Origin: Desulfosarcina ovata subsp. ovata
GTDB taxonomy: Bacteria > Desulfobacterota > Desulfobacteria > Desulfobacterales > Desulfosarcinaceae
Length of the DNA stretch: 64,000 bases
Assembly: GCF_009689005.1 (NCBI RefSeq)
Contig: NZ_AP021879.1
Span: 4,340,001 to 4,404,000, forward strand
Direction: 5' to 3'
Below the pieces are notes generated by a model. It made no database searches. It saw nothing but the letters and a program-made list of their open reading frames with translations, and was not told where the DNA came from. A program made the translations under genes and the position numbers. How positions within the stretch are numbered: position 1 is the stretch's first letter; every line of letters begins with the position of its first letter. Positions 12,597 to 39,530 of this stretch are shown here, piece after piece.

Positions 12597-13712
12597 ATGC
12601 AAACATCTCCCCTGTTCGAGTCTGCAACCCTTCATACACTGACCCTGCCCAACCGCTTCGTGCGCTCGGCCACCTGGGAAGGCATGGCCACGGAAAAGGG
12701 CGCGGTGACGCCCCGGCTGATCGACACCATGGCCGCCCTTGCCCAAGGCGGCGTGGGCCTGATCATCTCCGGGCATGCCTATGTCTCAGCGGAGGGCCAG
12801 GCCACGCCCTGGCAGCTGGGCATCTATGACGATGCCCTGGTTGACGGCCTGCGCCAGATGACCGATGCGGTGCATGCCGCTGGTGGGAGTATCCTTGCCC
12901 AACTGGCCCATGCCGGTAACTTCGCCCTGGAAAAGGCCATCGCTACCGCCCCCCGAGTGGTTTCCAATTTCGACGGCCTGGCAAAAACGCCGCGCCACGA
13001 GCTGTCCGCGGAGGAGATCGAAGCACTGAAAGGAGCTTTTGTGGCGGCGGCCCGGCGGGCCCTGGCGGCCGGCTTCGACGGCATCGAGTTGCACTGCGCC
13101 CACGGTTATCTGCTCAGCCAGTTTCTCTCCCCCTGGTTCAACCGGCGCACCGACGCCTATGGCGGATCCATCGAGAGCCGTGCGCGCATTCACGTGGAGA
13201 TCATCCGGGCGATCCGTGCGGTCGTGGGTGCGGACTATCCCCTGCTGATCAAAATCAATTGTTCGGATTTCGCGGATGGCGGACTGACCGTGGAAGAGAG
13301 CATCTCGGCAGTCCGGCGGATGGTCCCCGCCGGCCTGGATGCCATTGAGTTGAGCGGCGGTCTGCTTACCGGCGGAACGCTCTCTCCCAGCCGGCCGGGC
13401 ATCACCACCCCGGAGAAGGAGGCTTATTTCCGGCTGTCGGCCCGGGCGTTCAAGGAGGTCCTGGACGTTCCGCTCATTCTGGTAGGCGGCATCCGCTCTC
13501 CCGAAGTGGCCGAGCGCCTGCTGGCTGACGGCAGTGCCGATTTTTTCGCCATGTCCCGCCCGTTGATCCGGGAGCCCGACCTGGTCAACCGCTGGCAGAC
13601 CGGCGACCGCAGTCCGGCCCTTTGTATTTCGGACAACCTGTGTTTCCGGCCGGGCATGATGGGCAAAGGCGTTTACTGCCTGACAAAAGAACGTATGGAA
13701 ACCCAAAGATAA
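12597..13712 (+). CDS. NADH:flavin oxidoreductase, Old Yellow Enzyme family
   Basis: A 371-aa FMN-dependent TIM barrel. Visible family features are LPNRFVRSATWEGMA at the N-terminus, LAQLAHAGN, GFDGIELHCAHGYLLSQFLSPWFNRRTDAYGGS (substrate/FMN region), LIKINCSD, and the phosphate-binding end LVGGIRSPEVAE and DFFAMSRPLIREPDL. The length is that of a single-domain enzyme, without the C-terminal 4Fe-4S/FAD half of 2,4-dienoyl-CoA reductase. A remnant CISDNLC echoes the Fe-S site start. Such enzymes reduce activated C=C bonds. As the last gene of the TRAP operon, preceded by two Fe-S-type proteins, it probably reduces the imported enoate-like substrate (inference). Confidence 0.85.
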   Translation: MQTSPLFESATLHTLTLPNRFVRSATWEGMATEKGAVTPRLIDTMAALAQGGVGLIISGHAYVSAEGQATPWQLGIYDDALVDGLRQMTDAVHAAGGSILAQLAHAGNFALEKAIATAPRVVSNFDGLAKTPRHELSAEEIEALKGAFVAAARRALAAGFDGIELHCAHGYLLSQFLSPWFNRRTDAYGGSIESRARIHVEIIRAIRAVVGADYPLLIKINCSDFADGGLTVEESISAVRRMVPAGLDAIELSGGLLTGGTLSPSRPGITTPEKEAYFRLSARAFKEVLDVPLILVGGIRSPEVAERLLADGSADFFAMSRPLIREPDLVNRWQTGDRSPALCISDNLCFRPGMMGKGVYCLTKERMETQR

Positions 13713-13748: not shown

Positions 13749-15602
13749 TCACCCCGCATTTCCAAGCGCCCGGGTCTGTTTGCGCCATCGGCTAAGCAGG
13801 AGCACCCCCATCAGGATAAAAAATCCGGAGAAAAAATACGGCACATAATTGAATTTCGCACCGCCCGGGATCAGCACCGCTTGCTTGGGTTTTTCGGGAT
13901 TGTAGTAGACGGGAACCCTTTTTCCGACCGGATATCGGGCAACGACCTGTTTGGCATTGCCCGTTGAGGAAAACGAAAGTTTACCGGATTTATAGGTCTT
14001 ACCGTCAATGAGATATTGATAAGTGACGTTTGGGTATTCCTTCACCGTCTTCTTTTTGTTGGTGCCCTCTCCGCTGGTGCTGGTCCGCTTTTTTATTTCC
14101 GACTGGATAATACTGCCGCTTACTGTCGGCCAGGATTTGCTGGCCAGGCTGGTTTGATAGGCACTGTAGCTGAACACGGCGATAACGATGCCAATGGCGG
14201 GAAAAAGGACGCCGCCGACCATCTTTTCCACGGATGGGGACATAAAGCCCCCCACGATAAAAAACAGACCGATCCCCAGGGTGATCAATCCGCCCATACC
14301 GACGCCGGAAAGCAGGAACGGCAAGGCGATCACCGCCAGCAGAATGCCAGCAATTCGCTTCAGCCAGCGTTTGGCCGTTTTGATTTTGGGCGCCATGGAG
14401 GTATCGGCCTTGTTGGCGAATTCTCTGAAAAGCGCCTTGGTCTCTTCTTCCGAATAGCGCTTCCGGCCGCCCTGGGGCGGCGGAGGTGTCGGCGGTACAC
14501 CGGACGTCCCGGATTCCATGGCGGCATTGGCCGCGGCCACGGAGGTTGCCGCAAGCGCTGATTTTTGCGTCCATATGTGGGTGTTGAGATTCAACTGATC
14601 CACGATATCGACGACCAGTTTCAAATCGTCGTAATACTCCTGGATGTGGGAGATGTCGAGCAGGCTCTCTCTGATTCTGGGTTCGAACAGCTCTCTATTG
14701 AAGGCAATGGCCACATAGAATTTGGAATCCGAAAAGGAGAGCCGCATCTTTTTTTGGGCGCGGTTCTGGAAATCGACCAGCCGGCGCATCAGGCTGGTGG
14801 AAAGAATGTAGCGCGCCGCCACCTGATCCTGGCCGTAAACCACGAACAGCTTTTCGAAATCCGGGTCTTCCAGTTTGATCAGTTGGCCGTTCTGCACATT
14901 GAGGCTCTGGAGGGCCTGGCCAATATCGCCGAACAGCCGCTGAGCCGTATCCGGCAGGACGATGGTCGTCCCTTTGAAGGATTTGTTGAAATCGGCAACG
15001 AAGAGAAGTCCGTCGAAAATGGGGGTGATCTGTTTTTTCGTTCGATTCGTGCTGCTGGAACTCGAACTTTTCCGGATGATGTCGACCCGCTTGGCATGCA
15101 CCTCCGAGAATTGGATGGCCGTCTCCCCCAAGGTGCCGCTCACCAGATCGTCCCCGCTGTATTCGCCGGGTTTGTCGGCAAACAAATGGCTGGCCATAAA
15201 GGCTTCCCTGGGCACCATACCGGCTTTGTCGTACCGCAGGCGCTGATCGACAAAGGCCACGATCCTGGGGATGATCCTGTCTTTGAAGCCCGTGTGGTAG
15301 TCCCGGTAGTACTTGATGTGCCAGAAAAAAAACGTAAAGAGGGCCGATAAAATGATAAACGTCAACCAGACCATGAGATAAAGATTGAGGCCGAACAGAC
15401 CATGAACGAATAAAAACGCCAGATTGAGCGCCACGAAGATGACGATCGCCTGCACCAATTTCTTTTTTACGGTGAGCCGTTGCGCCTCCAGCGTTTCCAG
15501 GTCCGGCAACAGATCGGATTGGTAGAAGGATTCCAGTGATTGCATGTCTGCACCTTGCCATGATTTGGGATTGTTCAAATCGTAAGGGGTAGATTCTCTC
15601 AT
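13749..15602 (-). CDS. DUF3137 membrane protein with C-terminal DUF3592 domain
   Basis: 617 aa. The N-terminal half matches DUF3137: two TM helices (about 48-95), then a cytosolic domain with GFKDRIIPRIVAF, LFVADFNKSFKGTTIVLPD and the SDSKFYVAIAFNRELFEP segment. A proline-rich linker (VPPTPPPPQGG) follows, then two to three TM helices, and a C-terminal DUF3592-like extracytoplasmic domain (YPNVTYQYLIDGKTYKS ... YPVGKRVPVYYNPEKP) closed by a last TM helix. DUF3137 proteins commonly follow lemA, as here: the start ATG overlaps the lemA stop (ATGA). The DUF3592 part is paralogous to the separate protein encoded at 20044-20595. Function unknown; envelope-associated. Confidence 0.8.
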   Translation of the reverse strand: MRESTPYDLNNPKSWQGADMQSLESFYQSDLLPDLETLEAQRLTVKKKLVQAIVIFVALNLAFLFVHGLFGLNLYLMVWLTFIILSALFTFFFWHIKYYRDYHTGFKDRIIPRIVAFVDQRLRYDKAGMVPREAFMASHLFADKPGEYSGDDLVSGTLGETAIQFSEVHAKRVDIIRKSSSSSSTNRTKKQITPIFDGLLFVADFNKSFKGTTIVLPDTAQRLFGDIGQALQSLNVQNGQLIKLEDPDFEKLFVVYGQDQVAARYILSTSLMRRLVDFQNRAQKKMRLSFSDSKFYVAIAFNRELFEPRIRESLLDISHIQEYYDDLKLVVDIVDQLNLNTHIWTQKSALAATSVAAANAAMESGTSGVPPTPPPPQGGRKRYSEEETKALFREFANKADTSMAPKIKTAKRWLKRIAGILLAVIALPFLLSGVGMGGLITLGIGLFFIVGGFMSPSVEKMVGGVLFPAIGIVIAVFSYSAYQTSLASKSWPTVSGSIIQSEIKKRTSTSGEGTNKKKTVKEYPNVTYQYLIDGKTYKSGKLSFSSTGNAKQVVARYPVGKRVPVYYNPEKPKQAVLIPGGAKFNYVPYFFSGFFILMGVLLLSRWRKQTRALGNAG

Positions 15603-16156
15603 ACATCCAGAAGCTGCCCTACATCCACATTCTTTCGTTCCTGGGTATCGATTTCGAAAAATACCTTCTGCTGATATCGCATCAAGCTGGCGACAATATT
15701 GCTGGGAAACATTTCCAGGGCGTTGTTGTAATCCTTGACCGAGGCGTTGTAGGCTCTGCGCGCCGCCGAAATCTGTTCTTCCACTTCGTTTAAGGAGGCC
15801 TGCAGGTTGATGAAATTCTCGCTGGCCTTCAGATCCGGATAGTTTTCCGCTGCAACCATGATTTTCCCGATGGCGCTGGATACTTCCCGGTCCATGGCCA
15901 CGGTGTCCGCTTCGCTCATCTGGCCGGACATGACCTTGGCGCGCATCTCGGTCACCCGGGTAAGCACGTCGACTTCGTGCTGCATGTAGCGCTTCACCAT
16001 CTTGCTCAGGTTCGGGATCAGGTCGAAACGCTTTTTCAGCAATACGTCGATGCTGGAAAAGGCAGTGGCCACCTGGTTTTTCTTGCCCACCAGGTTGTTG
16101 TAAAGCAGGATCAGAAGAAGAACGATGACACCGGCGATGACGATGGCGACGATCAC
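15599..16156 (-). CDS. lemA: LemA family protein
   Basis: About 185 aa, starting at GTG 16156, 5 nt after GGGAGG. A longer frame exists but gives an implausible N-terminus. One N-terminal TM helix (VAIVIAGVIVLLLILLYNNLV) is followed by the LemA helical domain: FDLIPNLSKMVKRYMQHE, RAKVMSGQMSEADTVAMDREVSSAIGKIMVAAENYPDLKASENFINLQ, and the C-terminal YNASVKDYNNALEMFPSNIVAS. LemA proteins are membrane-anchored coiled coils of unclear function. The pairing with DUF3137 is common and suggests a membrane complex. It belongs to the long minus-strand envelope cluster. Confidence 0.93.
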   Translation of the reverse strand: MIVAIVIAGVIVLLLILLYNNLVGKKNQVATAFSSIDVLLKKRFDLIPNLSKMVKRYMQHEVDVLTRVTEMRAKVMSGQMSEADTVAMDREVSSAIGKIMVAAENYPDLKASENFINLQASLNEVEEQISAARRAYNASVKDYNNALEMFPSNIVASLMRYQQKVFFEIDTQERKNVDVGQLLDV

Positions 16157-16166
16157 GATGACCTCC

Positions 16167-16772
16167 CTATTTAAAAAGATTCTTGAAGAGGCCGCGCACG
16201 CCTTTGCGGACCTCTTGGGAAGTACTGTCCTTGACTTCATCCCGGGCAGCCTGCCCCACGTCCTTGGCGTCTTCGCTGATGGCTTCCCCGACGGCCGAGG
16301 GCTCGGAAGACGTCTGGGCGACAGGCTGCGGGGCCGACGCCGCCGTTGACGATCCGCTGCAGTTGCCGATCCGGCGCCCTGTGATGTGGTTGGTGAGTTT
16401 CATATTGGCGCTGCTGATCACCATGACCATGCTGCCCTCCATGGTGTCCCCATGATAGGTCACCTCGCCGGTGCCCTCCATCTGGCCGCCCTGGCCGCTA
16501 CAGACAATCTCCCAGGAGGTGGTGTCCCCATTGGTGACAACATTCGATATCTGGCATTCCTGGGAGGCACCCTGACTCATGGGAACCAGATCGTCCGCGG
16601 TGATGCACTGGGTATGGGTTTCGGAAGGAACCTGCATGTTGCCAGCCCCCTCCATTTTGGTTTCGGTGGTGAATTCCCAGAGGCCGGGATTGATGTTGGG
16701 ACCGGCCCAGGCATGGCCAGCCATCGGCAAAAGGACAATCATCAGTACAATAAGTCGTTTGCAGTTTTTCAT
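16167..16772 (-). CDS. Exported DUF3617 protein
   Basis: 201 aa from ATG 16772, preceded by GAAGGAGG. A Sec signal peptide (residues 1-23, ending AWAGPNI) leads into a DUF3617-type domain: NPGLWEFTTETKMEGAG, THTQCITADDLVP, SQECQISNVVTNGDTTSWEIVCSG, and GTGEVTYHGDTMEGSMVM. Three or four Cys probably form disulfides. A Ser/Ala/Pro linker follows, then a basic C-terminal tail (EVRKGVRGLFKNLFK). DUF3617 proteins are periplasmic with unknown role. The gap to lemA is 10 nt, so the two are co-transcribed. Confidence 0.82.
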   Translation of the reverse strand: MKNCKRLIVLMIVLLPMAGHAWAGPNINPGLWEFTTETKMEGAGNMQVPSETHTQCITADDLVPMSQGASQECQISNVVTNGDTTSWEIVCSGQGGQMEGTGEVTYHGDTMEGSMVMVISSANMKLTNHITGRRIGNCSGSSTAASAPQPVAQTSSEPSAVGEAISEDAKDVGQAARDEVKDSTSQEVRKGVRGLFKNLFK

Positions 16773-16963
16773 AGAAGCCTCCTTCAACGGAAAATAGTAA
16801 CGATTCACAGAAAATTTCTCATAATACTTCTTTTGCATGGGTCAAAAGTCTTCATCGATCGCTTTCGGAAATTTGCCAGTTCACCGCATAAGCCGCGTTC
16901 CTGTTGCCGCCGGCCGGCGGTTTCAGGGGGTTGTCGTTTTTGCGTGCGGCGGGAAACGGTTCT

Positions 16964-17287
16964 TTATTTGCAGACATCCAACCTGCACATCTTCTTGATG
17001 TCGCCTTTGTGAATCCGCTCGCAAAGCTTGCAGTCCCTGTTTTTCATAGCCAGTTGGTAGTAGCACCAGCCATGCACCCCGTCGGCCTTGGGCCAGTATT
17101 TGAGGATGTTTTCGCACAGCTCGGGCTGGTTGAGCTGCTCCACGGCTTCCTGGTAGCACCAGGGGCCGCGCGGAAGATCTTTGCAGGCTTTGAAGATTTC
17201 ATCCTGGTCATCCTGGGCGATTGCTGCAGCGCCTGTCATCACAAGCCAAAAAAACAACATTCCGGATACAAAAACTCGTTTGTTCAT
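16964..17287 (-). CDS. Small exported cysteine-rich protein
   Basis: 107 aa with a Sec signal peptide (1-24, AAAIAQ) and eight cysteines in the 83-residue mature part, at regular spacing (KAC, WCYQEA, LCENI, WCYYQLA, DCKLCERI, MCRLDVC). The repeated pattern of W/LCYxxLA followed by Cys suggests two or three short helical hairpins held by disulfides. No family name is assigned. Located between the HExxH protein gene and the DUF3617 gene, in the same direction. Confidence 0.65.
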   Translation of the reverse strand: MNKRVFVSGMLFFWLVMTGAAAIAQDDQDEIFKACKDLPRGPWCYQEAVEQLNQPELCENILKYWPKADGVHGWCYYQLAMKNRDCKLCERIHKGDIKKMCRLDVCK

Positions 17288-17314
17288 TGCAGCTCTCCCT
17301 GCTTACAGTTTCGG

Positions 17315-18781
17315 TCACCGGGTCCGGTTGGCCTTCAACACGGCCAGGCGCTCCTCGGCCACGGCCAGGCGACCATCGTTCGGGCAGTTTCGTTTTAGCC
17401 ATGAAATGTAGACATGAATGCCGGCAATGTAGGCATCGGTTTCGTACACGCCGAGTTTATCGACATTGTTTGGCGGAAACATGTCCGGATCCATATTGCA
17501 TTGACGAACGTGCCTTCTTTCGTGGGCGTACACGGCTTTATAAATCACATCGGGAAGGCAGCGTTCTTTCAGGCTTTCTTTCGCTTCCTTGGCTCCCAAG
17601 ACACAACATTTTTCCCCTTTTTTGGCGGCCTCCTTGCACTCGGCGGTTTTGTCGTTTTCGGCGCACTTATGGGCGGACATATGAATGCTGGTATCGGCGA
17701 TCGGATCGGGGCCGTTGCTTTGATAGGTCTGCCATGCCTGTTGACCAACCAGCCGTTTATAGGTGGACACATCTCCGGCGGCCCTGCCACGCAAGGTGGG
17801 GTCGTTGTAGGCCTCCGCCATGGCCAGATCCTCGTACAGAGAGTTGAAGACATCGTTGCAATAATTCTTCATTTGCAATGTATATTTTGCCACCATGAGA
17901 CGGTCCCAGTCACCCGGCTTTTCCGCCTTCTCCTCGACCAGGGTGAATTTGCCCTTGATTCTCTCCTGCCCGTCGGAAAATTTGATGTGTTTGTGCAAAA
18001 CAAACTTCCTGGAAACGGGATGGACCTGGAAGCGGCATATTTTATTGTCTTCACCACCCGATTCACTGGATCGCGGCTCCTGGGCGAAAGGAACGGTTGT
18101 CATCAATCGTTTTGATGATTTGCGCTTGCCGCTGCAAACATCTGTTTGCAGGGATTCGGCCTCGGATGTGTAGTTCACGAACAGTTCAACGGCCGCATCG
18201 AGCCAGTACCCGCCTTGGTAGGGTGCCGGCGTCAGTCCGACCCTGGCCCCTTTCGGTTTCATGTCGTAGTTTGTCTCGTCGAACCACTTTATTGTTTGCC
18301 CATTCTTGCCTTTCTCCCTTTGGGGGCACAGCTCGCCGCTGCCGCTTTCCTCTTCTGAAACTTCATTGCCTGGAGAGACCGGCACCGCCTCCGACCTTCC
18401 GTCCGCAGTTTCCTTGTTACACATCGTCTTGTAATAGGCATCGATACGGCCACGGTCCCATGTCTCCTTCCAGGCCCGTTGCACATTCGACACATAGAAG
18501 CGGCCGCACCCGCAAAACCGGATGGTTGCACTGGCTTGTATGGTTTGCCTGTCAACAACTTCCTGTTGGTGCCCCAACTGCGTGTCATCAATATGTTTAC
18601 TCTTGCTGTCCTTCTGGGTGAAAGTAATCTCTCCTTCCCAGACCTGTCCCATGCCCGAAGGCAGGTTGAGCTGCTTTAAAAGCTCCGCGGCCGGAATAAT
18701 CTGCTGCTGGGCCTGGATGCCGGATGGAAGCCAAATCATGCTCATCAGAAAAACAAACAAGGTTCTCAGAAAAATATGCAT
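17315..18781 (-). CDS. Exported protein with HExxH metallopeptidase-like motif
   Basis: 488 aa with a signal peptide (1-24, ending IQAQQQ). The body has many cysteines (RFCGCGRF, CKEAAKKGEKCC, RCLPDV). Near the C-terminus, VYAHERRHVRQC (His420-Glu421-x-x-His424) is followed 23 residues on by Glu447 in YETDAYIAGIHVY. This is the spacing of a gluzincin-type zinc site (HExxH plus downstream Glu). No family was recognised over the first 400 residues, so the catalytic function is an inference from the motif. It lies inside the envelope cluster, 31 nt after the DUF4412 gene. Confidence 0.6.
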   Translation of the reverse strand: MHIFLRTLFVFLMSMIWLPSGIQAQQQIIPAAELLKQLNLPSGMGQVWEGEITFTQKDSKSKHIDDTQLGHQQEVVDRQTIQASATIRFCGCGRFYVSNVQRAWKETWDRGRIDAYYKTMCNKETADGRSEAVPVSPGNEVSEEESGSGELCPQREKGKNGQTIKWFDETNYDMKPKGARVGLTPAPYQGGYWLDAAVELFVNYTSEAESLQTDVCSGKRKSSKRLMTTVPFAQEPRSSESGGEDNKICRFQVHPVSRKFVLHKHIKFSDGQERIKGKFTLVEEKAEKPGDWDRLMVAKYTLQMKNYCNDVFNSLYEDLAMAEAYNDPTLRGRAAGDVSTYKRLVGQQAWQTYQSNGPDPIADTSIHMSAHKCAENDKTAECKEAAKKGEKCCVLGAKEAKESLKERCLPDVIYKAVYAHERRHVRQCNMDPDMFPPNNVDKLGVYETDAYIAGIHVYISWLKRNCPNDGRLAVAEERLAVLKANRTR

Positions 18782-18811
18782 CGGTTTAACACTCCGTAAC
18801 CATGGGGATAT

Positions 18812-20041
18812 TCATCTAACCTGTTCCAGGTAAAACCGCACCGCCCCTTTTTTGACATGAACCTCGCCCGAAGCGATGTTCTGATCGGGGGTGAACCGCC
18901 ATTGTCGGGACTGCCCGTTTTTTAAATCGAAATCCTCTTTCAGGGCGGGCGCGCTGTCCTTGTCTTTGAAAAAAGCTACGGTCAGTTTGCTTCCGGGAAG
19001 ATCCTGGCTGTCACCGACGAGTCGGCAGACAGCGGTCCTTCGGCGTTTTACCCGGAATTCGGTTTTGCCGGGTTCCCGTACATACTTTTCCCGGCGTTGG
19101 TTTTTTACCCCGGGAATCGTTTCCTGGTTGACGGTTACAGAAACGGCGCCTTGGGTCACTGCCACCACGATCTCGTCAGGGCTTGGCCGAGTGGCGACAC
19201 GACTGGACGAAGGGGTGAAATTAACCTCTTCACGATCCCAACGTTTGGCAAAACGAATGGAAGGATTTCTCAGAACTTTTTTTGCAATCGATGTTTTATT
19301 GTTCAGGGCATCGATCGTAAGATGGGACGCTCCCTGGTGGACATTTTTCAAATACAGCATGATGTCTTTTTGTGGATCCACCTTGATGGTCAACACGCCG
19401 CCGGCTCCCAAGCGCCGGCCAATGGGCGCGTTGTGGGTTTCCTTGCCGGTAATGACCGCTTTCTTCTCCTTTTTCTTTTTCGCCGGCTGGGGCTTCGATT
19501 GTTCCTGTTTGACAAAACCTTCCGGAACCGCAAACAAGGCCTTGTTCAAGGACGATTTTTTTATTTCTCGCAGTTCGGTTGCGTAGCCGTTGGCACGATT
19601 CAACAACTTGACGGGAAAGTTGAATTCGAGGGAAATCCAGCCGGTCATCACGACCTTCCCGTCCATTTCGATCGCCTGTTTCGCGCATTCGATGCCGTTG
19701 ACGGTTTCCTGCCCCAACGACTTGGAGCCATGATCCGCCACCATTTTTTGGTAGGCTTCAAATGGATTCGACATCAGGCTCCTGAAGCTGGTGCTGGGAA
19801 ACTCCTGATAAATTTTCCCGGAAGGATCGATCACGCGGGTTTTGTTCTCAACGCGGTCCACCAGGATAATCAGCGGCTTTCCGTCTTCTTTGAGATTCAT
19901 CCGGTAACATCGATCCGACAAAAAAAACTTGCCGGTTTCGGTTTTACCGTCCCTTGTCATGACCAGGTCCGCGAAAAAGGAAGCCGCCAGGGCCGGCATG
20001 GACGAAAAAAGGAAAACCAATAGATAGACAAATGTGCGCAT
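18812..20041 (-). CDS. Exported DUF4412-like protein
   Basis: About 409 aa from ATG 20041 (AAGGAG 10 nt upstream); a longer frame would start inside the previous gene. A signal peptide (1-19, PALAAS) is followed by a DUF4412-like domain: ADLVMTRDGKTETGKFFLSDRCYRM, LVDRVENKTRVIDPSGKIYQEF and QETVNGIECAKQ. A lysine-rich linker (PAKKKKEKK) leads to a C-terminal region with PIGRRLGAGGVLTIKVDP and GDSQDLPGSKL. Both domains recur in the protein encoded at 22175-24235, so the two genes are paralogues, this one lacking the ankyrin part. Probably a periplasmic or outer-membrane-associated protein; function unknown. Confidence 0.7.
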   Translation of the reverse strand: MRTFVYLLVFLFSSMPALAASFFADLVMTRDGKTETGKFFLSDRCYRMNLKEDGKPLIILVDRVENKTRVIDPSGKIYQEFPSTSFRSLMSNPFEAYQKMVADHGSKSLGQETVNGIECAKQAIEMDGKVVMTGWISLEFNFPVKLLNRANGYATELREIKKSSLNKALFAVPEGFVKQEQSKPQPAKKKKEKKAVITGKETHNAPIGRRLGAGGVLTIKVDPQKDIMLYLKNVHQGASHLTIDALNNKTSIAKKVLRNPSIRFAKRWDREEVNFTPSSSRVATRPSPDEIVVAVTQGAVSVTVNQETIPGVKNQRREKYVREPGKTEFRVKRRRTAVCRLVGDSQDLPGSKLTVAFFKDKDSAPALKEDFDLKNGQSRQWRFTPDQNIASGEVHVKKGAVRFYLEQVR

Positions 20042-20043
20042 TT

Positions 20044-20595
20044 TCAATTTCTCCTTAATTTGGCTTTCACACATAAAACGCCTACGATGAAAAAAACGGC
20101 GCCAGCCAATAAAAGAACTATCGAACGCCAGGTGGTGCCGGATTCGAGGACGCCGTATGGCGGGTCCTGGGGATTGTAGTAGACTGTCACCGTTTTACCG
20201 ACCGGATATTTATTCACAATCTTTTGGGCCCATTTCATGCTGCCTCCGGACTCGCCCACGCCAAATGCGATCCGAGTGCTGGAATATTTTCTCCCTTCGA
20301 CCTGATAGTGGTAGCCCACTTTTGGATAATAGGTTGTCTTGGTCCGATGGTTCGAATCTCTGGTCGTCCGTTTGCCAACACTGGATGCGCTGATGGTTCC
20401 CTGGGCGGTGGGCCAGCTGCCGCTCTCCCGGGAGCCTTTGATTTCGAAGCCGCCCCAAGCCATCATAACAACGCCGGCCACGAACATCCCCAGAATCAGA
20501 AAAATCATCCCCCGGTCTGCCTTGCCACTGACGCCGGATAAATGGACAAACCTGCTTTTGGACTTATTTGTCTGAAGGGCTTTGGGGCTGTTCAT
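20044..20595 (-). CDS. DUF3592 membrane protein
   Basis: About 183 aa. Start 20595 is chosen because GGGTGG lies 8 nt upstream; an ATG two codons earlier is too close. A polar N-terminus is followed by TM1 (MIFLILGMFVAGVVMMAWGG). The extracytoplasmic DUF3592 domain has SWPTAQGTISASSVGK, YYPKVGYHYQVEGRKY and YPVGKTVTVYYNPQDPP. A final TM helix follows (IVLLLAGAVFFIVGVLCV). It closely resembles the C-terminal domain of the protein at 13749-15602 in the same cluster. Only 2 nt separate its stop from the next gene's ATG. Confidence 0.8.
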   Translation of the reverse strand: MNSPKALQTNKSKSRFVHLSGVSGKADRGMIFLILGMFVAGVVMMAWGGFEIKGSRESGSWPTAQGTISASSVGKRTTRDSNHRTKTTYYPKVGYHYQVEGRKYSSTRIAFGVGESGGSMKWAQKIVNKYPVGKTVTVYYNPQDPPYGVLESGTTWRSIVLLLAGAVFFIVGVLCVKAKLRRN

Positions 20596-20661
20596 TCTCA
20601 TTCCACCCTTTCTTTGTTGCTTGAATTTAAATAACTATCGTTCCTTTACCGACACTGTGGT

Positions 20662-22137
20662 TTATTGGTTTATGGGAAAGGCCGCGGTAACGGTCTCGCT
20701 CTTTCCCGCGCTTATCGTAACCGCCTCGAATTCGTGAACCTGTTTCGTGTCTTCGATGTTGATGACTTGCACCGTATACGCCCCCTCCGGCAAGGTGACG
20801 ACACGGGTGCCTTGTTTGGGCCAGGTGCTCCAAATCTTGATAACCTCTTTGCCTGCCGCGTCCACGATTTTAATCGGAGTCGCAAAAGGTTTCCCATCGA
20901 GGGTCACGACAACGGTCAGTTCTCCGGCTGAAAATTCGACGGTTTTTTCGACTGTTCCGCCTGGCATAACTTCCACGTCGTCCAGAAAAACGCGTGGTTT
21001 GCCGGCAATTTCATGGGCTCTCACTTCGATGCGATAGAAGCCTGGTAGCATTCGTCTTTTAAGATCGCCGGTGGTGTGGTTGGTCATCATGCTGAAAAAG
21101 TGCTTTTTTTCTCCTTGGCGATAAAAAAAGACACTGCACTCAAAAGGCTTGCCGTTGAGAAAAGATGCAAGCGCGATGGTGCCGTCCGAAAAGTCCGCTT
21201 TACGTTCCACCGTCTCGCCGGCCACGATGACAATATCTTTAAAACGCACCGCCGAGGCCTGGCCGCCGCTGACACCCGTGTTGTTGAGTTCGGCTTGGTA
21301 CGTGCCGGGAGCCAGCCGGATCTCCACCGTTCCGGTTTTCCCGGATGTACTGGCTGGCGACCATCTTTTGCCGCTTTCCTGGTGGGTCAGGGTGACAAGC
21401 GTAAAAAATGGTTTGCCGTTTTTTTCCGCGGAAACCTTGAAAATCCCATAGGGCGGGGTGGACTTTTCCACGACCTCCCTGGCGGCCGCCAGAAATTCCC
21501 CGGCATTGCCGGCGGTATAGTAGTTCCCGCCCCCGGCATTGGCCATGCATTCCAACTGCTCCCGCTCCTCCTCGGTGACATCGAAGCCGATGACGTGCAT
21601 GACGAATTTGATGCCCGCATCTTTGAGTTCACGGACCAGCCCGCAGGGATCCGGATCGCAGGTCTCCTTGCCGTCGGAAACCAGAACAATGGTCGTTTCG
21701 TTCTCGAGATGTTTGATACGCTCGGCCGTCAGGCGCACCGACCGGCTGATGGGGGTTTTCCCCTTGGGGTTCAAGGCCTGGATTTTGGCGGTCATCTTCT
21801 CTTTGTCCAGCCGTTCCAGGGGAATCAATTCCTCGACATCGTCGCAGTCGCCCTTGCGGCGGTGCCCGTAAGCCACCAGGCCAACCGTGCTCTCATCCGG
21901 CAATTCCTGCACCAGGCCGGTGAGGACTTCCTTGGCGATGGCAATTTTGGCCTGGCCCTCCACCTGGCCCCACATGGAGCCCGAAGCGTCCAGGATGAAA
22001 AGGATGTTTCCGGCCGTTTCGGCGGCAGCCGTGTTTTCGGAAAGGGATTTTTCCACTGATAGTACTGCTGGTGTGAGAGAAAACAGCAACGCGAACATTG
22101 CCGCGAGCCCGATCAGGATTTTCTTAAGCGTCAACAT
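20662..22137 (-). CDS. Exported von Willebrand factor A domain protein
   Basis: 491 aa with an N-terminal signal/anchor (1-27). The vWA domain (about 42-235) has a complete MIDAS: DASGSM (Asp50, Ser52, Ser54), Thr128 in KGKTPISRS and Asp155 in VSDGKETCD. The C-terminal half contains three successive beta-type modules, each opening with a similar NGKPF/DGKPF turn (EKNGKPFFT, FLNGKPFEC, TLDGKPFAT), resembling PEGA or carboxypeptidase-regulatory-like domains. Metal-dependent protein binding in the periplasm is likely. GGAG lies 6 nt before the ATG. The gene sits 37 nt downstream of the DUF4412-ankyrin gene. Confidence 0.85.
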   Translation of the reverse strand: MLTLKKILIGLAAMFALLFSLTPAVLSVEKSLSENTAAAETAGNILFILDASGSMWGQVEGQAKIAIAKEVLTGLVQELPDESTVGLVAYGHRRKGDCDDVEELIPLERLDKEKMTAKIQALNPKGKTPISRSVRLTAERIKHLENETTIVLVSDGKETCDPDPCGLVRELKDAGIKFVMHVIGFDVTEEEREQLECMANAGGGNYYTAGNAGEFLAAAREVVEKSTPPYGIFKVSAEKNGKPFFTLVTLTHQESGKRWSPASTSGKTGTVEIRLAPGTYQAELNNTGVSGGQASAVRFKDIVIVAGETVERKADFSDGTIALASFLNGKPFECSVFFYRQGEKKHFFSMMTNHTTGDLKRRMLPGFYRIEVRAHEIAGKPRVFLDDVEVMPGGTVEKTVEFSAGELTVVVTLDGKPFATPIKIVDAAGKEVIKIWSTWPKQGTRVVTLPEGAYTVQVINIEDTKQVHEFEAVTISAGKSETVTAAFPINQ

Positions 22138-22174
22138 ATCGATCTCCGTGGTATGGGTTCCCAGTTGTCGGTCT

Positions 22175-24235
22175 TCAAGGTGCGCCTAAAGATACCAGCC
22201 GTTCGATGATGGCTTGGCGGTTTTGCTGTTCATAGGCTTTTTCGCCCCGCCGCGGGGTCCTGGCCCAATCCAGGGCGGTTTGGCCGCTGCCATCCCGGGC
22301 GTCGATGTCGGCACCATGGTCCAGGTAGAATTCCAGCGGCTCGAGCCACGCCTTTTTGGCGGCGTGCATCAAAAGTGTTGTGCCGCTTTTGCTGATGGGC
22401 TTGTTGATATCCGCCCCTTTGGAAAAAAGCATGCCGAGGGTTTCCCGGACACCGGGTTGGAAAACGCCGTTCTTGGTTTTAAAGGCCAATTTCCAGACGT
22501 TGGTTTCGTCGTTGACCGGGGCGCCCGCTTCCACCAGCACGGCAATCACCGCCTGCCAGTGCTTGCGGTTGCTTTGGGCCTGGGAAAGGGCATCATTGTC
22601 GGAGCGGTCCCGGTAGGCCAGATCGCCGCCCCGGGTGATGATCATTTTGACCATATCGGCCGTACTCAGGTTGGCCGCGCTTTGCAGCAGGGGAGCGCCG
22701 TAAACCAGGGCATTGGGGTCCATCCCATTGTCGATCCGTTCCCGGACGGCGGCGACATCGCCGTTGTTCAGGGCGCGGATAATGATTTTTGCCGTGGCTT
22801 TGTCGAGGGCGGCCGCTTTGGAACCCGGCTGGATGGTTGACGTGCGGCCGACGGAAGCACTTGACGGGGTGCGGACGATCTTCGGTGTGGACTCGGGTTT
22901 GGCCGTTGCCGGCGCATTTTCCGTTCGTGTCTTGGCGGGGGCCGCGGCGGGCTGTTCGGCACGATAGACGATCCCGTCGTTTTCCCCCTTAACACCGATA
23001 TCGCAGGCCCGGACCTGCTGCTCCGGCGCAAAATGAAAGACTTCACTATCGCCGTTGGCGAGGCGGCATTCTTGTTGGATGGTCTTGTCCTGCTTGCCGC
23101 GCTGGAAGCATTTCAGGACCACCCGGGATTCGGGCGCATCCTGGCTGTCGCCGGTCACCGTGATGATCGCCGGCCGGGCGGGATCGAGGTCGATCTGGGT
23201 GGCACCCAGGATGCTCAGGTGGAGATAGCCTTCCTGGATTTTCCTGTCCCTGCTGAACGCAAACGGATCGGCTTCGTTGGTAACGGCGGCATAAACGAGC
23301 CCCTCCTCGACGTGAACCATCACCTGGGCGCTCTTTTTGGATTTTTTGATTTCGAATCGTTTTTTTTGCCATTTTTTTGTCAACGCCACCGGTTGGGGAG
23401 GCGTGGCATCCAGAGCCCCGTTTTGGGGAATGATGCGGTAGCGACAGCTTGAGCGATCGGTAAGGTTTTTCAGAACGATGGCGACGGGCCGATGGGGATC
23501 CACGGCCACCTGGATTTCTCCCCCCTGGCCGATACGGCGACCCCAGGGAGCGGACCCTTTAACGGTCTGGGTAATGGCCGGCTTGTCCTTCCTGACCTGG
23601 CTCGAATGCACTTCCTTGGCGTATCCCGCGGGGATCGCAAATACTGCTGAATCAATGGGTGCGACTTTAATGTTGCTGAGTTCCAGGGTGACATCCCGGA
23701 TATTGGTTTTGACCTTGACGGCGCCGTCCTTGCGGCCGCTGACGATATGGGCTTTGACCGGAAAAGCGTCCAGATCCCTGGCGAACCATACATCGGCCAG
23801 CTTGACGTCCTGGTCGTAAAACCCATCGTGATCGCAGGCATACCCGGCAACCGTTTCCGCGTTGATCCGTCGTCGGGTAACATTTTCCTGCAGGTAGGTA
23901 ATGGCTTGAAAAGGGTCGAGCATGTAAGCGCGCAAGGAGAAGCTTTTAAATGTGTCATAGGTGCGGGTATTGGGGTTGAGCAGCAGGGTCACGCCCTTGA
24001 CGCGATTCGTGACCACGACGGGACCTTTTTCGACGTCGTCGCCCGCAACGGTGAGGTCCATCCGGTAGCGGCCGTCGCTTGCATAAACTTTGCCCGTTAC
24101 GTCGCTGTTGAACATCCGTGCCGAAATGTCGGCGGTAAAATCATTTCCCCAGGCGGCGTGCCCGGCCAGCAACATCCCTAAAAAAAGGAGAAAAAAAACC
24201 CAACCGATTCGTGCTGCAGGATTTGCTCGTATCAT
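22175..24235 (-). CDS. Exported DUF4412-like protein with C-terminal ankyrin repeats
   Basis: 686 aa. A signal peptide (1-30, AAWGN) precedes a DUF4412-like domain (about 32-210: GKVYASDGRYRMDL, GVTLLLNPNTRTYDTF). A middle region (about 225-430) is shared with the paralogue at 18812 (PWGRRIGQGGEIQVAVDP, TGDSQDAPESRV). A low-complexity Ala/Pro/Thr linker leads to four to five ankyrin repeats (about 480-686: IIRALNNGDVAAVRERIDNGMDPN, GTTLLMHAAKKAWLEPLEFYLDHGADIDARDGSGQTALDWA). Ankyrin repeats on an exported protein imply a periplasmic or surface partner. The start codon overlaps the stop of the 70-aa gene (TGATG), so translation is coupled. Confidence 0.82.
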   Translation of the reverse strand: MIRANPAARIGWVFFLLFLGMLLAGHAAWGNDFTADISARMFNSDVTGKVYASDGRYRMDLTVAGDDVEKGPVVVTNRVKGVTLLLNPNTRTYDTFKSFSLRAYMLDPFQAITYLQENVTRRRINAETVAGYACDHDGFYDQDVKLADVWFARDLDAFPVKAHIVSGRKDGAVKVKTNIRDVTLELSNIKVAPIDSAVFAIPAGYAKEVHSSQVRKDKPAITQTVKGSAPWGRRIGQGGEIQVAVDPHRPVAIVLKNLTDRSSCRYRIIPQNGALDATPPQPVALTKKWQKKRFEIKKSKKSAQVMVHVEEGLVYAAVTNEADPFAFSRDRKIQEGYLHLSILGATQIDLDPARPAIITVTGDSQDAPESRVVLKCFQRGKQDKTIQQECRLANGDSEVFHFAPEQQVRACDIGVKGENDGIVYRAEQPAAAPAKTRTENAPATAKPESTPKIVRTPSSASVGRTSTIQPGSKAAALDKATAKIIIRALNNGDVAAVRERIDNGMDPNALVYGAPLLQSAANLSTADMVKMIITRGGDLAYRDRSDNDALSQAQSNRKHWQAVIAVLVEAGAPVNDETNVWKLAFKTKNGVFQPGVRETLGMLFSKGADINKPISKSGTTLLMHAAKKAWLEPLEFYLDHGADIDARDGSGQTALDWARTPRRGEKAYEQQNRQAIIERLVSLGAP

Positions 24236-24447
24236 CAGCCCCCCTTCCTTGACTTCCGAGACTTTTTAGATTTGACCGTTCCCGGTGATTTCTTTCCATT
24301 CGGATCCGTTGCCGATATCGCTTGGCACAACCCGGCCAGGCTGTTGAACGGCCGGCGTTGACCGGTATTGATATTCTCGACCATGCCCACGACCTCTTCC
24401 GGCTCGTCCGGGCTGCGCCGATAAATGCGAATGAGAAAACTGTCCAT
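24235..24447 (-). CDS. Small basic protein, first gene of the envelope cluster
   Basis: 70 aa. Residues 1-45 (MDSFLIRIYRRSPDEPEEVV, GMVENINTGQRRPFNSLAGL) look like a compact beta-hairpin/helix domain. The C-terminal 25 residues are strongly basic (KSKKSRKSRKGG), typical of nucleic-acid or membrane-surface binding tails. It has no signal peptide, unlike its downstream neighbours. Its stop overlaps the next start (TGATG), supporting translation. No family name is assigned. As the first gene of the minus-strand operon, divergent from the BTAD regulator, it may be a regulatory or adaptor protein (inference). Confidence 0.55.
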   Translation of the reverse strand: MDSFLIRIYRRSPDEPEEVVGMVENINTGQRRPFNSLAGLCQAISATDPNGKKSPGTVKSKKSRKSRKGG

Positions 24448-24674
24448 TGATTTGAGGACTTGCTAAAAAGTGAAATTTGGCCGACCATAGAATCATATCC
24501 AGTAAGCGTTGGACACCTATCATGACCGATGTCACCGATAGGTCACCGATTGCATTGCCAGCGTTTTTTTTGAATGAAGGAACGAACCTGAGCGTTTGCG
24601 CTACCAAGGAGGGGTGGAGGAGACGGCAGGGACAAGGATCTTCTCGTTAAACCGAGTCAAGGAAGACAGGGATC
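24448..24674. promoter_or_regulatory. Divergent control region with 11-bp-spaced direct repeats
   Basis: TCACCGAT occurs at 24532-24539 and again at 24543-24550, exactly 11 bp apart. A close copy TGACCGAT is at 24523-24530 and a weaker one (ACACCTAT) at 24513-24520. SARP/BTAD-type regulators with OmpR-like winged helices are known to bind tandem heptamer repeats at 11-bp spacing. The adjacent gene at 24675 encodes such a regulator. A 7-bp inverted repeat, ACCTATC (24515-24521)/GATAGGT (24537-24543), overlaps. This is probably the operator for the envelope cluster and/or autoregulation. Confidence 0.5.
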
Positions 24675-27600
24675 ATGGGACTGACGCGACCGCTCATCAG
24701 TAAGATCGCTCCTCCTGAACTGCCATCAGTCGTTCGACGGGAAACGCTGTTTAAGCTACTGGACCGGAAGGCGCACTATTCAGCGACCTGGATTTCCGGG
24801 GCAGCCGGGGCCGGCAAGACAACCCTGGTGGCCAGTTTTCTGGCGCGCCAGAAGCTTCCCTTTATCTGGTATCGGGTCGATGCCGGCGACGGCGACCTGC
24901 CCACCTTCTTTTATTACCTCGGCCAGGCCGTTAAAAAGGCTTCCCCTCGGAAACGAAAGCCCCTGCCGCTTCTCACGCCTGATTATCTACCGGGCGCCGC
25001 GGTTTTTGCCATCCGGTTTTTTGAGAATGTGAGTGCCCGGCTGGACCAGCCGCTTTTCATGGTGTTCGATGATTTTCAGAACGTCGAACCGTTTCCCACC
25101 TTTCATGAAGTTTTCAAAAACGGGCTGCTGAAGCTGGCGGCGAACATTCACGTGTTGATCATGAGCCGTTCGGACCCGCCCCCGGGATTGATTTCCCTGC
25201 TGGCCAATAACCGGATGCGCATCATCGATGCTGGCATGCTGCGGCTCAGTCTCAAGGAAACCGGTGCGATCCTCCGCCTGGAAACCGGCCGCCCCGTTAA
25301 TTCCGGAATTACCCGCCAGTTCTATGAAAAATCCAGGGGCTGGGCGGCGGGGATTGTTCTGATGGCCAAAGGCCTGCGGGATCGGCAGTGGTCATCATCC
25401 AGCCGGCCCCCCATCATGCCATCCACCATCTTCGACTACTTTTCCGGTGAGCTGTTTGACAAGTTGGAGGATCCGGTCAGGAATTTTATGCTGAAAACCG
25501 CCGTTTTGCCCCGGATGACCGCGGCCATGGCCAGAGCCTTCACCGGTAATACGGATGCCGACCGCATTTTAGCGGGTCTGCAGCATAAAAACCTCTTTAC
25601 GGAAAAGTCTTCCGACGATCCGCCCACCTATCAGTACCATGCACTTTTTCATCGTTTTTTGATTGCCAAAGCCGGAGATATGCTGGGACCGGAAACCGTG
25701 GCGGGGTTGAAACGCCGCGCCGCCCGGGTGCTGCAGGACGCCGGTCTGGTGGAAGAGGCGGCCTTGCGGCTGATCGATGTGGGCGACATGCCCGGTTTGG
25801 TCGGGTTACTCCACGCCCACGCCACGATGCTGCTCGATCAGGGGCGCCACAGACCGCTTGCCGATTGGCTGAGCCAAATCCCCGCGCCGGTTATCGACGA
25901 ACATCCCTGGCTGCTCTATTGGCGTGGCGCTGCCCGGCAGTATGATGAGGCGGTCGGTGCACGCGGGGATTTTGTGGGCGCTTTTGAACGATTTGAGTGG
26001 GACCATGACGAGCGCGGCCTTTTGCTCGCCTGGGCCGGCATCGTGCAATGCATCATCAGCGAATGGAACGACTTTCACGCGATCGATCCATGGCTCGACT
26101 GGCTGGATCGCTGGATCCGGGGCGCCGGTGTTTATCCCTCACCGCAGATCGAGGCACGGATAATGCTCGCCAGGGCCGTGGCCGAATTGATCCGCAGACC
26201 CACATCGGAAACCATCCAGCCGGGCTTTCAGAGAGCCCTGTCACTGGCCCGCAAGAGCGGCAACGTGGATTTTGAATTGCAGGTCATCGGCTGGGCCATG
26301 ACCTATCAGGCGTGGATGGGCCGGTTTGATGAAGTCGAGGTCATCCGCAAGACCTCCAAAGCCCTGGCCAAAGGCCGCCTGACCCAGCCATCCCAGGTAA
26401 TTCAATGGAAATGGATCGATATCGCCACCCGGCTTTACACGCTGTGCGGTCGGGAATCCATCCTGGACGAGATCGCCGAGGCGATCGATATGGTCCGTAA
26501 GACCGGTCTTTACACATGGGAGCACAAATTTTTCATGCCGGGCATTTTTGCGGCCCTGTTGCTGTCCGATTTCAACACCGCGGATGCGTTCCTGAAACGT
26601 TTCGAGGCGATTCTCGATCCGGCCCACTATCATGCCCATACGATCTATCATCACTTTGCCGGCTTGTATGCGCTGCTGACCGGCAATACGGTTCAAGCCC
26701 GGGCCCATGCCGAAACCGCCCTGCGTATTGCCGATGAAACGGGATATCGGCTGGCATGCGTGATCTGCCGGATCCAACTGGCCTATCTCCGCCATCTGCA
26801 CGGGAACAGCGACCAAGCCCTGGAGACGCTTCAGTCGGTCGGTGATATCATGCGACGGGGACAAAGCGCGGTCTTCGACTTTATGGAAATGATCGTGCGG
26901 GCCAAGATAGCCTATGACCGGGAGGATGAGCGGCAGGGTTTGGTGGTTTTGGAACGGGCTTTCGGGCTGGGACGCCGGCATCAATTTCTCACCATGGTCT
27001 GGTGGTGGCATCCCGGGCTGATATCCTATCTGTGCGGACAAGCCCTTGTCCATGGCATCGAAACGGACTATGCCAAAACGCTCATCCAAACTCACCGCCT
27101 GGCGCCGGATTCCCAGTTTGAAGGCCTCGTGGACTGGCCGCGGGCGTTTCATGTGCGAACGTTCGACACCTTTCAACTGCTGCGTGACGGGAAGCCGGTA
27201 TCCTTCAGCGGCAAAGTCCAGAAACGCCCCCTCGAATTGCTCAAATTATTGAGCGCAAGAGGGGGGCAGGCGGTGCCCCTGGCCACCATTATGGACGCGC
27301 TCTGGCCGGATGCGGACGGGGATATGGCCGCCAGTGCCTTTTCCTCGGCATTGAATCGGCTGCGCAAACTGATCGGTGTCAAACAAGCCATCACCCTGAC
27401 GAACGGCAAGGTCTCTTTTAATCCCCGTTACATTTGGGTCGACGTTCACGTTTTCGAGACGGCCATTCGCCGGGGGCGAAGGTTGAGGGACAGCGGCAAC
27501 GGCCTGGAGGCCCTTGAGTGGTTCCAACGCGCGATTGACGCCTATCGCGGCCCTTTTTTAGGCGATGAAAATGGAACCCCCTGGATCATCGCCGCCCGTG

Positions 27601-27887
27601 AACGACTGAAAAACATGTTTCTGGATATCCTGAAGGAGGCCGGCCGCCATCGGGAAACGGCCAAGGAATACGACCGTGCCATTGTTTGGTATCAAAAAGG
27701 ATTGGCCATTGATCCGCTTGAAGAGCATTTTTACCAACGATTGATGGCCTGTTATTTTTATCAGGGATGTTATGCCGAAGCGGTAAGAGTTTATGAACGC
27801 TGCCGGACAGTGTTGCAAACCCACTTCGACGTCCCGCCGGCAAGGGCGACGGAGGAACTTTACCAACGCATACGCAACAGGATTTAA
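24675..27887 (+). CDS. MalT-like STAND ATPase regulator with C-terminal wHTH-BTAD domain
   Basis: 1070 aa. An N-terminal STAND NTPase has Walker A GAAGAGKTT (about 44-52), Walker B LFMVFDDFQN and the sensor-like LIMSRSDPP. A long helical TPR-like/MalT middle (about 350-830) follows. The C-terminus (from about 830) has an OmpR-type winged helix (FDTFQLLRDGKPVSF, RPLELLKLLSARGGQ, ALNRLRKLIG). A BTAD/TPR domain then runs to the end (RAIDAYRGPFLGDE, WYQKGLAIDPLEEHFYQRLM). This is the inverse domain order of streptomycete SARPs. It is expected to be a ligand-gated transcriptional activator. Divergent from the envelope cluster and 260 bp upstream of the FrhB-iorAB operon, it could control either or both. 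Confidence 0.88.
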   Translation: MGLTRPLISKIAPPELPSVVRRETLFKLLDRKAHYSATWISGAAGAGKTTLVASFLARQKLPFIWYRVDAGDGDLPTFFYYLGQAVKKASPRKRKPLPLLTPDYLPGAAVFAIRFFENVSARLDQPLFMVFDDFQNVEPFPTFHEVFKNGLLKLAANIHVLIMSRSDPPPGLISLLANNRMRIIDAGMLRLSLKETGAILRLETGRPVNSGITRQFYEKSRGWAAGIVLMAKGLRDRQWSSSSRPPIMPSTIFDYFSGELFDKLEDPVRNFMLKTAVLPRMTAAMARAFTGNTDADRILAGLQHKNLFTEKSSDDPPTYQYHALFHRFLIAKAGDMLGPETVAGLKRRAARVLQDAGLVEEAALRLIDVGDMPGLVGLLHAHATMLLDQGRHRPLADWLSQIPAPVIDEHPWLLYWRGAARQYDEAVGARGDFVGAFERFEWDHDERGLLLAWAGIVQCIISEWNDFHAIDPWLDWLDRWIRGAGVYPSPQIEARIMLARAVAELIRRPTSETIQPGFQRALSLARKSGNVDFELQVIGWAMTYQAWMGRFDEVEVIRKTSKALAKGRLTQPSQVIQWKWIDIATRLYTLCGRESILDEIAEAIDMVRKTGLYTWEHKFFMPGIFAALLLSDFNTADAFLKRFEAILDPAHYHAHTIYHHFAGLYALLTGNTVQARAHAETALRIADETGYRLACVICRIQLAYLRHLHGNSDQALETLQSVGDIMRRGQSAVFDFMEMIVRAKIAYDREDERQGLVVLERAFGLGRRHQFLTMVWWWHPGLISYLCGQALVHGIETDYAKTLIQTHRLAPDSQFEGLVDWPRAFHVRTFDTFQLLRDGKPVSFSGKVQKRPLELLKLLSARGGQAVPLATIMDALWPDADGDMAASAFSSALNRLRKLIGVKQAITLTNGKVSFNPRYIWVDVHVFETAIRRGRRLRDSGNGLEALEWFQRAIDAYRGPFLGDENGTPWIIAARERLKNMFLDILKEAGRHRETAKEYDRAIVWYQKGLAIDPLEEHFYQRLMACYFYQGCYAEAVRVYERCRTVLQTHFDVPPARATEELYQRIRNRI

Positions 27888-39304: not shown

Positions 39305-39319
39305 TTTTTTCAATTTTGG

Positions 39320-39530
39320 TTGTCCAGGCGCGTACGAAACGCGAATGCAGAACGGAAAGATTCGGCTGCGTTAGGGAATCCCGTGAGAGTCGGGAACGGG
39401 CCCGCCGCTGTAACCGGAGACGAAACCTGCAACAGACCACTGGTAACATACCGGGAAGGTGCAGGAAAGAGAAAGACCCGGAAGTCAGAAGACCTTCTTG
39501 GACAATGCGTCGTATTCCTCGAGGACGGGT
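39320..39530 (+). ncRNA. Cobalamin (adenosylcobalamin) riboswitch
   Basis: Conserved aptamer blocks appear in order: TTAGGGAATCCCGTGAGA and TCGGGAACGG in the early stems, the B12-box-like CCCGCCGCTGTAACCGG (about 39409-39426), CCACTGGTAACATACCGGGAAGG, and the closing GGAAGTCAGAAGACC. It is followed by an expression platform with an intrinsic terminator (39568-39601) and then a BtuB-like receptor gene. This is the expected context for cobalamin-repressed uptake by premature termination. Boundaries are approximate. Confidence 0.92.

Follow-up and report, generated by a model that had tools for sequence, protein, structure and literature searches.

RseB and MucB are periplasmic stress regulators, and folds of the LolA type bind lipids. 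The operators of SARP regulators, according to excerpts from two reports (PMC10936776, PMC5930380), are direct repeats with an 11-bp period that lie 8 bp from the -10 element. Here we describe a locus of Desulfosarcina ovata subsp. ovata that recalls both: ten genes on the minus strand (A to J) and a divergent gene R encoding a STAND-BTAD regulator, within a stretch of 64,000 nucleotides (contig NZ_AP021879.1, positions 4,340,001 to 4,404,000; hereafter the window). Genome comparison shows that the gene set is conserved, that its modules are exchanged, and that R and a DNA site in the R-A spacer are linked to it; A to J very probably constitute a regulon that R controls through this site. We hold the fuller picture of an R-activated envelope set with somewhat less than even confidence, and a function in envelope maintenance or surveillance is put forward tentatively. 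The regulatory half of this picture derives from comparison that included a blind test, and the function is what we infer.

The regulator and its putative DNA site

The product of R matches the BTAD profile with 102.2 bits (cut-off 22.1) and TPR above the cut-off, with subthreshold matches to AAA_16 and Trans_reg_C (18.3 bits, cut-off 26.2); its candidate winged helix-turn-helix and BTAD part occupies residues 849-1067 of 1070. Homologues at E-values up to 1e-100 occur in 37 of the 395 genomes of the phylum (below, G numbers denote genomes, G000 being that of the window, and L numbers fetched loci). A tree of 25 homologues placed R in a clade of six (support 100/100) with the regulators of G003, D. 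cetonica, G107, L182 and one of those of G189, and five of the six adjoin a gene set of the kind described here. None of the other 19 has a vWA gene or a long-form DUF4412 gene nearby in the available stretch, several of these loci being 4-8 kb contigs that may end before the neighbouring genes; a short DUF4412 gene is present at two. The tree left out pieces shorter than 600 residues (G048 and half of the D. cetonica gene) and two duplicate loci; the D. cetonica regulator is represented in it by a 629-residue piece. The clade and the DNA site tie R to the set, which supports the dedicated STAND-BTAD regulator proposed in the first-pass annotation.

Of 39 distinct regulator loci, compiled by hand and in some cases with flanks of 1.5 kb, 17 contain a homologue of the small basic protein A, both inside and outside the clade of R, so A goes with the regulator family and not with the cluster alone. 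One homologue (G026, L060 992-1186) lies at a locus that also contains pieces of a broken vWA gene. The codon score of A is near zero (-3), yet its clear homologues adjoin related regulators; the open reading frame at 24141-24488 (P0001) was rejected as the first gene since it is in the wrong frame (codon log-likelihood -41).

The 227-bp R-A spacer contains GTCACCGAT twice at 11-bp spacing, and the same repeat is present in the corresponding spacers of G107, G048, G003 and D. cetonica, with a weaker copy (3 mismatches) in L182. Read towards the cluster, the site is ATCnGTGAC-Cn-ATCTGTGAC, followed after 8 bp by TGnTAn at most sites. The 11-bp period of the window site and its distance of 8 bp from the element that follows fit the SARP rule as given in an excerpt from PMC10936776. 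When the spacers were shuffled 200 times, the observed value was reached by 17 shuffles for G107, 0 for G048, 11 for G003, 20 for D. cetonica and 189 for L182.

A search pattern was defined from the five perfect sites of the window, G003, D. cetonica, G107 and G048. In 12 chosen genomes it retrieved seven perfect copies, all seven at R or at set genes, including two that had played no part in defining it: one before a second operon of G107, the other in G048, leading to an unlinked T-like gene (the T type is a HExxH protein introduced below). A scan of the 146 genomes of the order, carried out with one more fixed base, again gave seven perfect copies, 7/7 at R or set genes, and none for the reversed pattern. 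Three were already known (G000, and G048 twice) and four lie in the newly met genomes G476 and G525, at R with A and DUF3617, at a GIDE gene, at R with A, and at a row of T-like protein, LemA, DUF3137 and DUF3592; at the second of the R-with-A sites a small helix-turn-helix-like gene stands between R and the site, and the last row, in G525, was found through the DNA site alone. Both scans together yield 11 distinct perfect copies, every one of them at R or a set gene; five had served to define the pattern, which leaves six independent of it. The window site is the sole perfect copy in its 7.63-Mb genome. When up to two mismatches are allowed, the number of sites in the 12 genomes is 29, compared with 4 when the pattern is reversed. 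In G189 a variant site lies beside R, and nearly the same variant precedes a DUF4412 cluster located on a different contig.

Near other members of the regulator family, GTTAC, GTAAC or GTCAC takes the place of GTGAC within the same repeat frame (G429, G374 and G414; L168 2815, L179 11746, L181 8085). Judged from these sequences, the versions of the repeat across STAND-BTAD regulators suggest a recognition code.

Gene content and predicted structures

Table 1. Genes and putative control elements of the locus, in window coordinates.
Feature	Position	Strand	Description	Basis
R	24675-27887	+	STAND nucleoside triphosphatase (NTPase)-TPR-winged helix-BTAD regulator, 1070 residues, divergent from A-J	BTAD/TPR matches; clade of cluster-linked regulators
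Putative operator	24531-24550	-	ATCGGTGAC-CT-ATCGGTGAC, direct repeat, 11-bp period	only perfect match in G000
Putative -10-like element	24517-24522	-	TGATAG, 8 bp downstream of operator	aligned sites
A	24235-24447	-	small basic protein, 70 residues, partner of R-type regulators	homologues at regulator loci
B	22175-24235	-	exported DUF4412 (long form) with ankyrin repeats, 686 residues	Pfam; homologue of same architecture in L182
C	20662-22137	-	exported vWA protein with metal ion-dependent adhesion site (MIDAS), 491 residues	Pfam; invariant residues
D	20044-20601	-	DUF3592 membrane protein, 185 residues, two transmembrane-like segments	Pfam; hydropathy
E	18812-20041	-	exported DUF4412 long form, 409 residues, LolA/RseB-type fold predicted at model residues 17-183	Pfam; predicted structure
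F	17315-18781	-	exported protein with HERRH, 488 residues, without Pfam family	sequence motif
G	16964-17287	-	small exported Cys-rich protein, 107 residues	sequence
H	16167-16772	-	exported DUF3617 protein, 201 residues from the start with ribosome-binding-site-like sequence	Pfam; hydropathy
I	15599-16156	-	LemA, 185 residues, N-terminal membrane segment	Pfam; hydropathy
J	13749-15545	-	DUF3137-DUF3592 membrane protein, 598 residues	Pfam; hydropathy
K	12597-13712	+	flanking gene outside the set, presumably old yellow enzyme-like judging by its sequence; one-sided marker of insertion site	comparison with relatives

The ten minus-strand genes that the first-pass annotation had described within 13749-24447, one for a small basic protein and nine for exported or membrane proteins, are all present; its observation of a ten-gene cluster is confirmed, and its interpretation as a whole is partly supported. 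Pfam matches above the cut-off comprise DUF4412 and DUF3592 (two proteins each), ankyrin, VWA, DUF3617, LemA and DUF3137, with no such match for F and the Cys-rich G. Hydropathy alone indicates a signal-peptide-like segment at the start of B, C, E, F, G and H and membrane segments in D, I and J.

Starts supported by ribosome-binding-site-like sequence or by conservation (E at 20041, H at 16772, I at a GTG at 16156, J at 15545) remove most of the overlaps between starts and stops reported at first, of which the 1-bp overlap of A and B stands. The gaps from B to J then measure 37, 60, 2, 30, 27, 191, 10 and 53 bp, the 191-bp gap upstream of the DUF3617 gene leaving room for a second promoter. 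Between 12500 and 28200, consensus promoters (7 found, 7.9 expected) and terminators (25 found, 24.1 expected) were at chance level. Purifying selection acts on C, D, G, I and J (ratio of nonsynonymous to synonymous substitution rates 0.11-0.27 against relatives in the genus). The content of guanine plus cytosine is 0.53-0.58 over 14-24 kb and about 0.60 leftwards.

Of the pairs proposed as internal paralogues, the two DUF4412 proteins are 25-26% identical, and the DUF3592 domain of D and that fused in J share 34-37% identity. As for the MIDAS described as intact, the residues that we take to form the motif are invariant in a nine-row vWA alignment. As to the candidate protease, HERRH is present in F, but HExxH is not constant in this slot among relatives; some genomes have there a related protein without HExxH, and the set thus does not always include a peptidase. 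F shares HERRH and E..AY with the T family over 51 columns (E-value 3e-4, probability 41%). Its structure model was unusable (predicted local distance difference test, pLDDT, 36), a search of the genome contigs with F returned no relative, and sequence searches of solved structures with F and E gave no match.

The AlphaFold2 model of E, built from nine sequences, has a mean pLDDT of 79 and a predicted template modelling score of 0.46, with pLDDT of about 82-95 in the DUF4412 part. For this part VIA-align reported LolA (Z-score 13.7), VioE (13.4), RseB (12.9), EPDR1 (12.8) and MucB (12.1); matches to structures of the LolA/RseB/MucB type reach Z-scores of about 10-14 over roughly 130-155 residues at 6-18% identity. 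On the strength of this model, the DUF4412 domain is predicted to have the LolA/RseB/MucB fold. PNGase chains, the top Foldseek rows for E, were rejected as kin (aligned at a root mean square deviation of ~21), as was the assignment of I to MamQ (75.5 bits against an NCBIfam cut-off of 250).

Elsewhere in the window, a Cobalamin riboswitch (102 bits; 39309-39515, plus strand) lies upstream of a TonB-dependent receptor gene at ~39638-41614.

Conservation in the genus and the insertion site

In three other genomes of the genus, namely G003, G005 and that of D. cetonica JCM 12296 (G006), more than two or three genes of the set occur together at the site seen in the window; D. alkanivorans PL12 (G008) belongs to the genus too. 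Synteny beyond two or three genes, the absence of which the first-pass annotation had named as counting against its reading, is present. In a search of 60 relatives, F turned up in 3 and E in 12, while 13 had J or its DUF3592 part; the vWA protein matched in 38, most of these vWA matches being weak. The three same-site clusters all adjoin K, with I, J and K 73-92% identical. The F slot is filled in G003 and G005 by HExxH proteins of 1084 or 1052 residues (X type) and in D. cetonica by a 729-residue HEMTH protein (T type); T and X have a common N-terminal module of 129 residues (E-value 2e-32), and the comparison of F with X gave nothing significant. A vWA protein carries a fused DUF4412 domain in G003 and G005. 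Partial sets were found in G012 (vWA, T type, a GIDE piece and DUF3592) and G016 (LemA, DUF3137-DUF3592 and DUF3617).

K is present in eight of the 13 genomes of the genus; the cluster adjoins it in four (G000, G003, G005, G006) and does not in G008 and G002, with G001 and G011 left out of this judgement, K lying there at a contig end. In D. alkanivorans an operon of what we take to be amidohydrolase-like and transport genes follows directly after K, and the same operon, 82-92% identical, follows the cluster in G005; hence a single place saw the gain or loss of ~9.6 kb. At its opposite end, G000 and G003 differ from the G008/G005 pair. Just upstream of the DUF4412-vWA fusion gene of G003 lies a gene pair (L085 8210-9381), presumably transposase-like.

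Occurrence beyond the genus

The set is conserved but modular, and in other families it is rearranged. Its parts are exchangeable: several unrelated HExxH proteins occupy one slot, the membrane module is either LemA-DUF3137 or GIDE, and DUF4412 occurs alone or fused to vWA. Gene calls at the fetched loci come from a codon-based caller that failed at some loci (e.g. L295), and their family labels from profiles built on one to a few sequences. Of the 395 genomes, 77 matched the DUF4412 model, usually with a solitary domain; apart from G000, five contained most of the long form (G189, G163, G173, G307 and G306), the contexts in G173 and G307 stopping at contig edges. G306 and G189 combine DUF4412 with the Cys-rich protein, DUF3592 and a CsgG-like gene, and G306 also has PASTA, GIDE and DUF3617; CsgG-like and PASTA genes join the set in G476 as well as in G306. 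DUF4412-vWA fusions were found in G163 and in G107, there with R and DUF3617. The locus L182, from the metagenome-assembled genome B46_G9, whose label as Myxococcota rests on a single contig, contains in a row R, the small protein, vWA, a T-like protein without HExxH, DUF3592, GIDE and DUF4412-ankyrin. The T model matched eight of the 395 genomes, some by the N-terminal module alone. In G243 (L296 10315-11557) the Cys-rich G protein adjoins a PspA/IM30 gene, possibly another link to envelope stress. Finally, another set family accompanies vWA at 10 of the 12 vWA loci listed first (at two only as a fusion within the same protein) against 1 of the 68 others (p = 4e-10), a split that was chosen after the table had been seen and in which several of the 12 are genomes already in use.

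Proposed function and alternative explanations

We propose that R would be a dedicated AfsR-like (STAND-TPR-BTAD) activator that responds to some signal by occupying the direct repeat at 24531-24550 and bringing RNA polymerase to A-J, which would be transcribed as one operon. The two DUF4412 proteins of predicted LolA/RseB fold may bind a hydrophobic or lipoprotein-like ligand and the vWA protein may hold partners via its MIDAS, perhaps in a complex; the set would also supply a peptidase-like protein, possibly proteolytic, and small exported helpers, with LemA, DUF3137-DUF3592 and DUF3592 as putative inner-membrane anchors. Together they would capture and process misplaced or damaged exported material, or lipid-like material. 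An envelope role is suggested by hydropathy, by the LolA/RseB/MucB fold of DUF4412 and by the CsgG-like and PASTA genes that join the set. More broadly, we would cautiously entertain the view that Desulfobacterota, and perhaps Myxococcota too, have here an envelope machine that has not been described before. It would be composed of LolA-fold DUF4412 and vWA proteins together with peptidase-like proteins and membrane modules (LemA-DUF3137 or GIDE), the last two being exchangeable, and would be run by one branch of a large family of STAND-BTAD regulators, the branches reading different versions of one repeat (ATCTGT-G/T/A/C-AC).

Several observations weigh against the R-activated envelope set. 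The window repeat by itself is modestly unusual (3 of 200 shuffles), perfect sites are rare (4 of the 146 genomes of the order), and most of the 29 sites with up to two mismatches are untied to the set, only the G189 pair adding to the seven perfect ones; two off-set mismatch sites that we inspected (G000, G306) lie inside other genes. A perfect copy stands by a regulator from outside the clade (G315, L175, a 6.8-kb contig), with set genes not near. The cluster of G005 has neither an adjoining R nor a perfect site, and the gene adjoining R in G189 belongs to no set family. G was found in five of the 395 genomes, in three within DUF4412 clusters and in two, of one genus, apparently outside such clusters. 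Genes are broken or shortened in relatives, which may reflect decay or assembly error: in D. cetonica J is split over three frames and R over two (L078 3924-7171), E is shortened in G005, the end of D is in another frame in G003, and D. alkanivorans holds elsewhere a decayed copy (L079/L183) in which F is reduced to its tail and G is interrupted by a stop. The LolA fold is found also in EPDR1 and VioE, so the fold does not fix the function.

That A-J are chance neighbours without functional link is barely conceivable: most of the families also occur solitarily in the phylum, but the confinement of all 11 perfect sites to R or set genes, together with the regulator clade, largely refutes this. 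A rather unlikely alternative is that surface or periplasmic proteins stand under one regulator without a common machine, each acting alone, for example in adhesion or matrix contact. The composition varies strongly, the genes of G107, G048, G476 and G525 lie in separate units that each carry a copy of the site, and vWA, Ig-like and PASTA domains are frequent in surface proteins, all of which would agree with such independence; the fusion of DUF4412 and vWA in one protein in several genomes and the adjacency of LemA and DUF3137 in 8 of 8 loci that have both speak against it.

The variable slot could also belong to a set for antagonism or defence with the HExxH protein as exchangeable effector, which we consider unlikely. 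At one chromosomal site the slot holds the F, X or T type, T and X being different beyond their N-terminal module and F and T sharing the HExxH region only, and STAND proteins are known in conflict systems; PADLOC, however, gave among B-J and R an ankyrin match (E-value 5e-19) and two marginal hits, on which a defence system was rejected, no immunity partner is evident, and some slot proteins have no HExxH. Improbable, finally, is a system that handles hydrophobic substrates (hydrocarbons or long-chain acids, for instance) and in which R would sense the substrate: lipid binding by LolA-type folds and the degradation of hydrocarbons or aromatics by D. alkanivorans and D. cetonica would be in line with this, but no catabolic gene is found among the ten and the D. 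alkanivorans copy is decayed.

With A-J as the probable regulon of R, DUF4412, DUF3137, DUF3592, DUF3617, LemA and GIDE come together as a single regulon, for which a switch can be named and a 20-bp site given, and their putative shared function becomes testable via one gene, R. Further members were found from the DNA sequence of the site alone, and the GTGAC, GTTAC, GTAAC and GTCAC versions suggest that targets of other STAND-BTAD regulators of the phylum may be predictable likewise.

Comparison with known systems

The set as such has no named counterpart in the libraries and open-licence literature searched, in agreement with the first-pass annotation. Like the LemA/MamQ family, I has a LemA domain and an N-terminal membrane segment, its match to the MamQ model being weak. 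The DUF4412 part of the E model shares its fold with RseB/MucB and LolA, and E is, like B, predicted to be exported; in contrast to these proteins, DUF4412 is followed by a further beta-rich part, by ankyrin repeats or by a vWA domain fused to it, and, unlike in the case of RseB/MucB, there is no sigma or anti-sigma gene among the ten. R appears to be a variant of the AfsR/SARP kind. As in the AfsR and SARP-LAL regulators of Streptomyces, to the extent covered by the excerpts from PMC10936776 and PMC5930380, it has NTPase, TPR and SARP-type DNA-binding/BTAD parts; its putative site resembles their operators in sequence by its direct repeat of 11-bp period, and the 8 bp to the -10 element may have their equivalent in the TGnTAn-like sequence 8 bp on at most sites. 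R differs from AfsR, the SARP part of which is N-terminal, by its C-terminal DNA-binding/BTAD part, and from the AfsR/SARP systems in that the repeat is ATCnGTGAC, the putative target an envelope set and the hosts relatives of Desulfosarcina.

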